This document shows positions 38,387 through 49,875 of a stretch of DNA of 64,000 bases, piece after piece; within the stretch, counting starts at the first letter, position 1, and each line of letters opens with the position of its first letter. Source of the stretch: Dorea longicatena (GTDB lineage: Bacteria; Bacillota; Clostridia; Lachnospirales; Lachnospiraceae); contig NZ_CP102280.1 in assembly GCF_025150085.1 (NCBI RefSeq), positions 387,001-451,000 on the forward strand, given 5' to 3'. The translations under genes were made by a program, and so were the position numbers. The notes below the pieces were generated by a model. The model did no database searches. It was not told the DNA's origin and saw only the letters and a program-made list of their open reading frames with translations.

Positions 38387-39148
38387 ATGTTAAAAGTAGC
38401 AATCTACGGCAAAGGCGGCATCGGAAAATCTACCGTCACATCCAATCTGGCGGCAGCATTTGCCACGATGGGGAAGAAAGTAATCCAGATCGGCTGTGAT
38501 CCGAAGGCAGATTCGACGATGAACCTGCTCGGTGGGGAACCGTTAAGACCGGTCATGAATTATATGAGAGAGGAAGATGAAGAACCGGAGAAACTGGAAG
38601 ACATTGCAAGAGAAGGATTTGGAAATGTCTTATGTATCGAGACGGGCGGACCGACACCGGGACTGGGCTGTGCGGGAAGAGGAATCATTGCCACATTCCA
38701 GTTATTAGAAGATTTGAAATTATTCGAGACCTATAAGCCCGATGTGGTTCTGTACGATGTACTTGGCGACGTAGTCTGTGGCGGATTCGCAGCGCCGATC
38801 CGGGAAGACTATGCAGAGAAGGTCCTGATCGTGACATCCGGGGAGAAGATGGCACTTTATGCGGCGGACAACATTTCCAAAGCAGTGAAGAACTTCGAAG
38901 ACAGAAGCTATGCAAGAGTATTCGGAATTGTACTGAATCACAGAAATGTGGAAAATGAGACTGAAAAAGTAGAGACATTTGCAAAAGAGCATGGATTTGA
39001 CATCGTGGGAGAGATTCCAAGAAGTGATGAAATTAACCGTTGTGAAGACCAGGGGAAGACGGTGATCGAGGGAAATCCGGAGTCGGACATCAGTAAATGC
39101 TTCTATGATCTGGCGGAAATATTATGGAAAGATGAGGAACAGGTATGA
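38387..39148 (+). CDS. NifH-like reductase, first copy
   Basis: Iron-sulfur ATPase of 253 residues, the electron donor type for nitrogenase-like enzymes. Walker A GKGGIGKST is at 8-16, the [4Fe-4S] ligands are Cys95 (GLGCAGRG) and Cys131 (GDVVCGG), and the Lys41-type switch is in GCDPKADST. Nothing essential is missing. The closest known uses are nitrogenase, BchL/ChlL, CfbC and group IV homologues; this one has no standard nif genes around it. AGGAGG precedes the ATG. It overlaps the next gene by 4 bp, and a second NifH-like gene is at 46590. Confidence 0.9.
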   Translation: MLKVAIYGKGGIGKSTVTSNLAAAFATMGKKVIQIGCDPKADSTMNLLGGEPLRPVMNYMREEDEEPEKLEDIAREGFGNVLCIETGGPTPGLGCAGRGIIATFQLLEDLKLFETYKPDVVLYDVLGDVVCGGFAAPIREDYAEKVLIVTSGEKMALYAADNISKAVKNFEDRSYARVFGIVLNHRNVENETEKVETFAKEHGFDIVGEIPRSDEINRCEDQGKTVIEGNPESDISKCFYDLAEILWKDEEQV

Positions 39149-40425
39149 GAGAGACTGCCTATTATTGTACGGTAGAAGAATTACAGAAGCGGGGAAGGGA
39201 TGACATTCCGGAGCAGTTCCGTTCGAACACGCATCTGATCTACAGTTCTCCGGCGACGCTTGCGTTCAACTCGCCGGGAGCGGAAGGATTCGGTGTGAAA
39301 AGGGCCGGGCTTGCAATTCCGGATTCGATCATGCTGATCGTGGCACCGGGATGCTGTGGGCGGAATACATCCATGATCAGTTCCATGCCACAGTATGAGG
39401 ACCGTTTCTTCTATTTGACGATGGACGAGACAGACATCGTAACGGGAAGACATTTGAAAAAAGTACCGAAGGCCGTGCAGGAGATCTGTGACAGTCTTGC
39501 GAAGAAGCCGTCGGTTGTGATGATCTGCATTACCTGTGTGGATGCACTTCTCGGAACAGATATGGAACGAATCTGCAGAAAGTCCGAAGAAAAGACAGGA
39601 CTTCCAGTGAGACCATGCTATATGTATGCCCTGACAAGGGAAGGAAGAAAACCGCCGATGGTACATGTGCGTCAGTCGTTATATTCTTTACTGGAACCCA
39701 AGAAGAAAAAAGGAAATGTCGTGAATCTGCTGGGATTTTTCTCACCACTTATGGACGACTGTGAGTTATACGGTATGTTGGAAAAAGCAGGTGTAAAGAC
39801 GGTGCATGAGATATCCAGATGCAAGAACTATGAAGAATATCAGACGATGGCGGAGGCGAATTTCAATCTGGTATTACATCCAGAAACGAGATTCGCAGCA
39901 GAAGATTTTCATGAGAAATTGCAGATTCCGTTTATCGAACTTCGGAGATTGTACCAGATTGATAAGATAACGAAGCAGTATCAGGCACTGGGGAAGGTTC
40001 TGGGGATTCCATTCGAAGATAAAGAGGCAGAAAGAACTGCACTTGATGCGGTAGAACGTTTGAAAGCCGCTAAGCCGGATGCCATATTTGCCATTGGAGA
40101 ATGTATGAACGGTGATCCGTTTGAACTGGCACTGGCACTTGTGAAATACGGATTTCAAGTGGCAGAGATCTATGGGACACTGAATGCAGAGAACTTTGTG
40201 TATCTGAAGCATTTATCCGAATTAAGTCCGCAGACAAAAGTATTTTCCAACATGGAACCGACCATGATCTATTATGATCACAAAGAGAGCGGAGTAACCA
40301 CTACCATTGGAAAAGATGCCTGCTACTATCATCCGGATGCGGAAAATGTGATGTGGAATGAAGAAGTACAGCCGTATGGATATGCAGGTGTGAAGCATTT
40401 GTGCGAAAAACTGTTGGAGGTGTAG
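39145..40425 (+). CDS. NifD-like (nitrogenase component 1-type) subunit, first copy
   Basis: Protein of 426 residues in the oxidoreductase/nitrogenase component 1 family, about 60 shorter than NifD. Cys70/Cys71 in APGCCGRN match the NifD GxxGC cluster ligand, and Cys131 in ICITCVDALLGTDM matches the third ligand (NifD Cys154 position). The usual first N-terminal ligand is not obvious; only Cys8 is there. No counterpart of the FeMo-cofactor Cys275/His442 context was found. It probably pairs with the next gene's product and receives electrons from the NifH-like protein. Substrate unknown. Confidence 0.8.
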   Translation: MRETAYYCTVEELQKRGRDDIPEQFRSNTHLIYSSPATLAFNSPGAEGFGVKRAGLAIPDSIMLIVAPGCCGRNTSMISSMPQYEDRFFYLTMDETDIVTGRHLKKVPKAVQEICDSLAKKPSVVMICITCVDALLGTDMERICRKSEEKTGLPVRPCYMYALTREGRKPPMVHVRQSLYSLLEPKKKKGNVVNLLGFFSPLMDDCELYGMLEKAGVKTVHEISRCKNYEEYQTMAEANFNLVLHPETRFAAEDFHEKLQIPFIELRRLYQIDKITKQYQALGKVLGIPFEDKEAERTALDAVERLKAAKPDAIFAIGECMNGDPFELALALVKYGFQVAEIYGTLNAENFVYLKHLSELSPQTKVFSNMEPTMIYYDHKESGVTTTIGKDACYYHPDAENVMWNEEVQPYGYAGVKHLCEKLLEV

Positions 40426-48733: not shown

Positions 48734-49875
48734 GACAGAGTTACAGAATTATACCGATTTACACAGCTGACGTATCCGGTGTCTGCTCTGCCCTGTATGA
48801 ATTGGGCGGGATGACAGTGATGCATGATCCGTCCGGTTGTAATTCCACTTATAATACACATGATGAGATAAGATGGTATGAGCAGGACAGTATGATCTAT
48901 ATCTCAGGGCTGACGGAGATCGATGCTGTCATGGGGAATGATGAGAAGATAATCTGTGATATTGAACTGGCTGCAGAAGAATTAAAGCCGAAATTCATCG
49001 CACTTGCAGGATCACCGATCCCATATATGAATGGAACGGATTTTCCGGCAATCGCCAGGATGCTGGAACAAGATCTCGGAATCCCGGCATTTTCGATTCC
49101 GACAAATGGAATGCATGATTATGTATATGGTGCCGGTCTGGCTCTTGCAGAGATTGCAAAACGTATCAAAGGAAAGAAAGAAGTGACGTCAAAAAGTGTG
49201 AATCTTCTGGGAGTAACACCTTTAGATTTCGGGCCGCAGGAGCATGTAGATGCTTTAAAAAGAAATGTAGAAGAGACGGGATGGAAGGTATTGTCGACCT
49301 GGGCTATGGGAGATACACTGGAAGATCTCGGACGTGCACCGGAAGCGGAGGTTAATCTGGTGGTATCTTCTGTGGGACTTTGGGCGGCCAAAGTATTACA
49401 GGAGAGGTTCGGGACACCTTATGTGATCGGGACACCGATCCGGGGATTTATGAAGAGTCTTTTGAATGCAATAGAAGAAAAAAAGCAGGTAGCATATCTC
49501 GAAAAGGGAAGGCGCATCAGCCTGACAGGAAACAAATCGGAAAAAAGTTCAGAAAACCAGATTATATTAATCGGAGAACCGGTGATCATGGAATCTCTGG
49601 CAGTAGCGATCGAGACGGAATATCAGATATCTGTAAGAGTAATCTGTCCGATAAGGGAGAAGAAAGGATTACTTGCGGATGGAGATATTGCAGTCCGTGG
49701 AGAAGAAGAACTGGAACAGGTACTTCAGAGATCAAAGAATGTAAAAGGCATTGTAGCGGATCCATTGTATCGCCCGGTCTGTCCGGAGAATGTGGCATTT
49801 TATGAGCTGCCGCATATTGCATTTTCGGGAAGAATTTATAAAAAGAAACTGCCGGTCCTGGCAGAACTTATATAG
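48730..49875 (+). CDS. NifK/NifN-like subunit, second copy
   Basis: Protein of 381 residues, short for NifK. Cys19 (SGVCSALYELGG) and Cys37 (HDPSGCNSTY) are in the N-terminal cluster region; the third Cys position reads AGSPIPYMNGTDF, so it is lost as in the first copy. ATG 48730 shares ATGA with the upstream stop; an earlier in-frame ATG at 48709 is less likely. It ends the operon; a 130 bp gap follows. Confidence 0.77.
   Translation: MRQSYRIIPIYTADVSGVCSALYELGGMTVMHDPSGCNSTYNTHDEIRWYEQDSMIYISGLTEIDAVMGNDEKIICDIELAAEELKPKFIALAGSPIPYMNGTDFPAIARMLEQDLGIPAFSIPTNGMHDYVYGAGLALAEIAKRIKGKKEVTSKSVNLLGVTPLDFGPQEHVDALKRNVEETGWKVLSTWAMGDTLEDLGRAPEAEVNLVVSSVGLWAAKVLQERFGTPYVIGTPIRGFMKSLLNAIEEKKQVAYLEKGRRISLTGNKSEKSSENQIILIGEPVIMESLAVAIETEYQISVRVICPIREKKGLLADGDIAVRGEEELEQVLQRSKNVKGIVADPLYRPVCPENVAFYELPHIAFSGRIYKKKLPVLAELI

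Follow-up and report, generated by a model that had tools for sequence, protein, structure and literature searches.

The window analysed here is a 64,000-nucleotide stretch of the Dorea longicatena genome (contig NZ_CP102280.1, positions 387,001 to 451,000). At 38387..49875 it carries an operon of eleven open reading frames (ORFs), all on the + strand, in the order H1-D1-K1-hypF-hypC-hypD-hypE-TM1266-H2-D2-K2. Hence, two NifH/D/K-like trios surround hypFCDE and a TM1266-family gene. A preliminary description, made from the sequence of the window, had reported this layout. It is borne out by the ORFs, by their spacings (successively -4, 3, 9, -2, -1, 26, 2, 43, -7 and -25 bp) and by Pfam and NCBIfam models, with which gene families were assigned (Oxidored_nitro cut-off 28.6 bits). 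The genes are listed below.

38387..39148, +, H1: NifH-like ATP-dependent reductase, trio 1 (Pfam Fer4_NifH, 297 bits)
39145..40425, +, D1: NifD/E-like subunit, trio 1 (Oxidored_nitro, 112 bits)
40429..41508, +, K1: NifK/N-like subunit, trio 1 (Oxidored_nitro, 68 bits)
41518..43896, +, hypF: carbamoyl transferase of cyanide synthesis (Acylphosphatase, two zf-HYPF, Sua5_yciO_yrdC and HypF_C domains; all four types)
43895..44107, +, hypC: chaperone, would hold the iron unit with HypD (TIGR00074, 62 bits, cut-off 48)
44107..45153, +, hypD: [4Fe-4S] scaffold (TIGR00075, 388 bits, cut-off 192.8)
45180..46235, +, hypE: cyanide donor with C-terminal PRIC (TIGR02124, 426 bits, cut-off 251.6)
46238..46546, +, TM1266: putative regulator of [FeFe]-hydrogenase systems (TIGR03959, 112.5 bits, cut-off 60.8)
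46590..47420, +, H2: NifH-like ATP-dependent reductase, trio 2 (Fer4_NifH, 315 bits)
47414..48733, +, D2: NifD/E-like subunit, trio 2 (Oxidored_nitro, 32 bits)
48709..49875, +, K2: NifK/N-like subunit, trio 2 (Oxidored_nitro, 102 bits)

The translations of H1 and H2 keep the Walker A motif GKGGIGKS and both cluster cysteines. HypC Cys2 and the C-terminal PRIC of HypE are also visible, and all of these features had been named in the preliminary description. It was also right that no hydrogenase subunit, hypA or hypB lies within the operon. An Rfam scan of the window gave no match.

Kinship and conservation of the operon

None of the H, D and K proteins reached a curated cut-off in any of the nitrogenase, CfbC/CfbD or BchL/X/N/B/Y models to which they gave a match. 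H1 and H2 scored 318 and 336 bits against a nifH cut-off of 394. D1 scored 71 bits against a nifE cut-off of 505, and the nifD and nitrogenase alpha cut-offs were likewise not reached. The CfbC model gave 315 and 328 of 402 bits, and the CfbD model 24.5 and 27.5 of 268.4 bits. The best scores were 212 of 345 bits for BchL (H1 and H2) and 51 of 490 bits for BchB (K2); the BchN cut-off was not reached. NCBIfam gave no methylthio-alkane reductase match for the operon proteins.

In profile searches, D1, K1 and K2 all had NifE as their best match of solved structure. The nearest solved chain to D2 was methylthio-alkane reductase (9d9u_A), a weak match (E 3.9e-4, 22.5 bits). For a naturally fused D1-K1 protein, Foldseek returned NifEN as first match, with a root-mean-square deviation of 26.5 over both halves, whereas VIA-align ranked DPOR first. 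Because the two programs rank different systems first, we draw no function from the fold. The residue aligned with the NifE cysteine that we take to be a cofactor ligand is His or Asn in D1 and, judged by eye, is not conserved in D2. In a tree, D1 proteins formed their own clade (100/98). The D2 proteins of the operon, together with those of HydE/HydF-linked importer loci described below, formed one clade (100/100), outside which six other importer-linked D2-like proteins were placed.

Thus, the trios share the H-D-K layout and fold of NifEN and NifDK but miss the curated cut-offs, and D1 and D2 do not keep the presumed cofactor cysteine. They differ from DPOR (BchLNB) and CfbCD in scoring under the BchL/N/B and CfbC/D cut-offs, and D2 approaches MarHDK, the methylthio-alkane reductase, only at the E-value above. 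The preliminary description had set two things against its reading of a novel system: a normal [NiFe]-hydrogenase operon lacking hypCDEF, together with D/K genes that fall in a group of known function. We found no match to PF00374, the [NiFe] large subunit, in the host, and the H, D and K proteins stayed below the nitrogenase, CfbC/CfbD and BchL/X/N/B/Y cut-offs. The view that the operon matches no characterised system is supported. A search of open-access papers, judged by titles and the starts of abstracts and with most subscription papers outside it, found no description of such a system. In excerpts of PMC10418091, the nitrogenase-like genes of group IV-A are associated with other clusters.

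We fetched 21 related loci (L numbers; genomes carry G numbers) from Clostridia, of which 17 hold D1 and four (L018-L021) hold trio 2. All eleven genes stand in order in nine of the 17 D1 loci (L001, L002, L003, L006, L007, L009, L011, L012, L013). Five more (L005, L008, L010, L014, L016) end at contig ends, with gene order intact up to the end. The exceptions are L015, where D1 and K1 are fused, and L017, which is without H2. In L004, 2.9 kb separates D1 from K1 (11276-14169) and the fetched stretch stops inside H2; by eye, the insert holds ORFs resembling a flavodoxin-type reductase and pieces of another protein. With all eleven genes in order in nine of the 17 D1 loci, the layout is more than chance. 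The D1 proteins of ten of these relatives, aligned with that of the window, are 58-79% identical to it. Among the carriers of the operon are the gut bacterium Coprococcus comes and several Blautia.

A draw of 130 genomes of the family, for which a completeness of at least 92% was requested, added eight D1-positive genomes, giving 25. The eight additional D1 proteins are at most 87% identical to the first 17 and so are not copies. Many of the first 17 are metagenome-assembled genomes (MAGs), and for these an absence counts for less than one in the complete host. The preliminary description had proposed looking for these D/K subtypes together with hyp genes in other genomes, and they do co-occur: hypF directly follows K1, or the fused D1K1, in 22 of the 25 D1 loci. 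For the remaining three, L005, L014 and L048, the sequence ends within D1 or K1.

The natural D1-K1 fusion was seen twice, in L015 (8569-11100, 844 aa) and L077 (3354-5792, 812 aa). Both proteins are good candidates for expression and structure determination.

HydE, HydF and HydG in genomes with the operon

The host genome is a single contig of 2,919,963 bases and is 99.87% complete. It encodes the maturases HydE (619 bits, cut-off 254.6) and HydF (574 bits, cut-off 325.55), and no match to HydG (TIGR03955) was over cut-off. A 197-bit match to the HydG profile was considered as a divergent HydG and rejected; the protein is ThiH (525 bits, cut-off 380). The host hydE and hydF genes are neighbours, 63 bp apart, with no hydG between them (L038). 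The host also has a group A [FeFe]-hydrogenase, HydA (TIGR02512, 468.5 bits, cut-off 405.95), which narrowly misses the exception cut-off set for the NADH-dependent A6 model (746.6 of 765). It carries TSCCPGW, MPCVAKKGE and EVMACPGGCVGGGGQP, which we take to be the three H-cluster motifs. Genome-wide, PF00148 has exactly four matches in the host: D1, K1, D2 and K2.

We examined how the trios are distributed relative to HydG. Among 22 genomes (the 17 first-fetched D1-positive genomes, the host and the four with trio 2 only), HydG was over cut-off in one, G021, a trio-2-only genome. Taking all 25 D1-positive genomes, none has HydG over cut-off, 24 have HydF and 20 have HydA over cut-off; HydA passed in 28 of the 35 genomes searched. 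In four of the five D1-positive genomes without HydA over cut-off, the best match was at 127-297 bits. The fifth, G016, a 1.9 Mb MAG that is also without HydF, gave only E 4.9e-5.

Of the 130 family genomes, 62 have HydG over cut-off and 75 have HydF, with a broken copy in another (G089). The D1 profile exceeded 600 bits in eight, the other 18 of its 26 matched genomes (at most 232 bits) not being counted; the D2 profile exceeded 420 bits in ten, the other seven of 17 (at most 302 bits) not being counted. HydF was present, and HydG over cut-off absent, in all eight D1-positive and all ten D2-positive genomes. For the 76 HydF-positive genomes, counting G089 as HydF-positive and G057 (262 bits, from no more than the final third of HydG) as HydG-less, D1 occurs in 8 of 15 without full HydG vs 0 of 61 with HydG (p=3.4e-7). 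For D2 the figures are 10 of 15 vs 0 of 61 (p=3.1e-9); both tests ignore kinship. Dropping the second genome of the host's genus left D2 at p=3.5e-8. The exclusion weakens when all 130 genomes are taken (D1 p=0.007, D2 p=0.0015). HydG-profile matches of about 157-205 bits in other genomes were taken as ThiH, not each being checked. Those of about 45-98 bits, in ORFs of about 350-390 aa, were read as HydE, as confirmed by models or phmmer for fetched proteins only.

HypD by itself is not exclusive with HydG, being present in 7 of the 61 genomes with both HydF and HydG. It is over cut-off in 22 of the 130 genomes, including all eight with D1. Thirteen operon HypD proteins group in a single clade (98/99) that excludes five further HypDs, one of them on a very long branch.

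In some relatives, gene neighbourhoods link the operon to hydF and hydE. The hydF gene directly follows K2 in seven genomes (G039, G074, G087, G011, G012, G013, G017). Inside the operon, hydE is found after K2-hydF in four (G074, G087, G011, G013) and after hypE in G076. In total, the operon contains hydF and/or hydE in 8 of the 25 D1-positive genomes; no such arrangement was seen for the other 17, in part because of contig ends. Nine HydG-positive relatives were also fetched. The order is TM1266-hydE-hydG-hydF in four (L134, L135, L136, L138), hydE-hydG-hydF in L131 and L137, TM1266-hydG-hydF in L133, hydG-hydF in L132 and hydE-hydG in L139. Hence, six of nine have hydE-hydG-hydF where the host has hydE-hydF, and TM1266 adjoins hydEG or hydG in five of nine. 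HydE has 99 invariant columns over 22 proteins from genomes with and without HydG, and in this comparison no column separates the two sets. The invariant columns fit an unchanged HydE substrate.

Trio 2 also occurs with a FecBCD-type (iron-type) importer, in L018, L019, L020, L021, L078 (3532-12623) and L079 (3562-11654). The fetched stretches of L018-L021 contain no Hyp gene. HydE adjoins H2 in L018, L021 and L078, and HydF is present in L078 and L079. A TM1266 gene is present in all six loci except L018. In both importer ATPases tested with Pfam, a TM1266-like domain forms the C-terminus (L019 8058-9116, L021 7033-8163). Such fusion to importer ATPases suggests that TM1266 domains sense a small molecule; a literature search on TM1266 returned nothing useful.

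A proposed route to the H-cluster and its rivals

Excerpts of PMC13360658 describe HydG as the start of H-cluster synthesis: it makes Fe(CO)2(CN) from tyrosine, HydE turns this into a diiron precursor and HydF completes the precursor. In [NiFe] maturation, according to parts of PMC12134894, carbamoyl phosphate is the substrate from which HypE and HypF form cyanide, and Fe(CN)2CO is carried by HypCD; where the CO ligand comes from in anaerobic synthesis is named there as the most pressing open question about the [NiFe] cofactor. The Fe proteins of nitrogenases convert CO2 to CO, both in vitro and in vivo, according to excerpts of PMC9298215.

The preliminary description had proposed a metal cofactor pathway or enzyme that brings Fe-CN/CO units and nitrogenase-like reduction together. 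The genome data support such a pathway, with a chemistry that is so far predicted. The cofactor would be the H-cluster, because the operon goes with HydE, HydF, [FeFe]-hydrogenase and the absence of HydG. Thus, the best reading of the operon, and in our judgement a likely one, is a HydG-independent route to the H-cluster, its function being deduced from genomes. The host resembles organisms with HydE-HydG-HydF maturation in having HydE, HydF and HydA, and TM1266 lies beside hyd genes in relatives. It differs in having no HydG and in having HypCDEF with two trios, which in relatives are linked to hydF and hydE.

By analogy with [NiFe] maturation, carbamoyl phosphate would be the source of cyanide, formed by HypF and HypE, and the iron would sit on HypC-HypD. 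The genes for H1 and D1K1 stand directly before hypF. These proteins may supply ATP-driven, low-potential electrons, most simply for reduction of CO2 to CO for the HypCD iron; this step is proposed with less confidence, and CO2 reduction is a guess. H2 and D2K2 could work as a station resembling NifEN, where the unit would be converted or handed on to HydE, from which it would pass to HydF and then HydA. TM1266 may sense or regulate supply. We provisionally assign trio 2 to the HydE/HydF side of the route and trio 1 to the Hyp side, because trio 2 occurs without Hyp, with HydE or HydF in some of these loci, and D2 proteins of both layouts form one clade. The complete tyrosine-free and HydG-free pathway, in which trio 1 converts CO2 to CO, HypEF provides cyanide, HypCD provides iron and trio 2 yields the HydE substrate, is possible, and we lean slightly against it in this full form.

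Several observations weigh against a HydG-independent route. The host operon, at 0.43 Mb, is far from hydEF, at 2.48 Mb. HydE takes Fe(CO)2(CN) whereas HypCD is known to make Fe(CN)2CO (excerpts of PMC13360658 and PMC12134894), a mismatch that needs an unproven exchange step. In Cupriavidus necator, added CO2 was excluded as a direct CO source, according to a passage of PMC12134894. HydG is absent in five of the six trio-2/importer genomes and HypD in both of those searched (G117, G131), which leaves their cyanide source unaccounted for; the sixth, G021, has HydG with its trio-2/HydE locus. HydE, HydF and TM1266 occur in G138 in the absence of HydG, D1 and D2; in G114 and G122, HydF is present although HydG and the trios are missing. 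For the latter two, absence of HydE rests on a missing HydG-profile cross-match and on the stretches seen, with no HydE family search across the 130 genomes. Since these three genomes have neither HydG nor trios, absence of HydG does not require the operon. Lastly, eight of the 25 D1-positive genomes have HypB over cut-off.

HypB also bears on whether the Hyp set matures an unseen [NiFe]-hydrogenase, with the trios as bystanders. HypCDEF is complete and intact: HypC, HypD and HypE pass curated cut-offs and HypF has all its domains, as in HypA-F maturation, and two D1-positive genomes (G009, G074) match PF00374. Conversely, these two genomes each have a separate HypD beside PF00374 in addition to the operon HypD, and the operon HypDs form their own clade. 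PF00374 had no match in the host genome, with controls matching in 5 of 14 genomes, or in 23 of the 25 D1-positive genomes, a test that the preliminary description had proposed. In the parallel test for hypB, also proposed there, HypB (TIGR00073) was not over cut-off in the host or in 17 of the 25, the exceptions being the eight noted above; hypA and nifB were not searched for genome-wide. [NiFe]-hydrogenase maturation was rejected as the host role on the lack of PF00374 and of HypB over cut-off. This explanation is already refuted for the host unless the Pfam model misses its large subunit, and overall we consider it very improbable.

Instead, the product of the operon might be a new Fe-CN/CO cofactor that serves a different enzyme, which could be D1K1 or D2K2 itself, with HydE and HydF shared or borrowed. 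Two trios and a full HypCDEF set exceed what supply of CO and cyanide seems to need, and the D/K fold is common to enzymes and scaffolds. However, the host's group A [FeFe]-hydrogenase, with its H-cluster motifs, needs an H-cluster, and none of the 25 D1-positive genomes has HydG over cut-off. We regard a new cofactor as unlikely. Alternatively, HydG may simply have been lost, with HydE and HydF using scavenged CO and cyanide while the operon does an unrelated reduction, for example in tetrapyrrole or thioether chemistry. Excerpts of PMC9431212 report that HydE and HydF without HydG gave about 1% activation in vitro, doubled by exogenous CO or CN. G138, without HydG and trios, and the weak match of D2 to methylthio-alkane reductase also fit. 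Yet scavenging leaves HypCDEF without a [NiFe] large subunit, hydF and hydE within the operon, and the HydG exclusion unaccounted for, and the CfbC/D, BchL/N/B and nitrogenase cut-offs were not reached. We judge this combination quite improbable.

If the operon stands in for HydG, a single H-cluster pathway unites the [NiFe] and nitrogenase-like toolkits, and a defined gene set is at hand in which to test where the CO ligand comes from under anaerobic conditions. The complete HydG-free pathway, if true, would answer for this lineage where the CO ligand originates in anaerobes using Hyp proteins. The operon may also bear on other genomes that have HydE and HydF without detected HydG. According to parts of PMC9431212, five of eight Clostridium acetogens have HydE and HydF with hydG undetected, atypical HydG candidates and HydG-free activation being among the hypotheses; those genomes lie outside our analysis.

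Further importer-linked and maturase-linked loci

G021 (L026) is a Blautia MAG and the only genome with both HydG and a trio-2/HydE locus. Two tandem hypB genes lie upstream of the trio-2 importer locus in L019 (2005-3373) and L020 (2073-3460), both from Mogibacterium MAGs without a PF00374 match. A further D2-like group (L155-L160) occurs in G024, G058, G067, G077, G139 and G146 and is importer-linked where examined. Because HydF is not over cut-off in G024, G067 or G146, the role of this group must be a different one.

In the HydG-less genomes G138 and G058, HydE and HydF stand beside an ABC importer that resembles sulfonate importers, below cut-off (L087 4681-8930, L086 3099-8017). Aspartate ammonia-lyase genes lie between hydF and hydE in G010 (L143 1321-2649) and beside hydF in G094 (L082 3452-4960), both D1-positive; excerpts of a 2024 paper (PMC11736057) tie ammonia-lyases to the H-cluster bridge.

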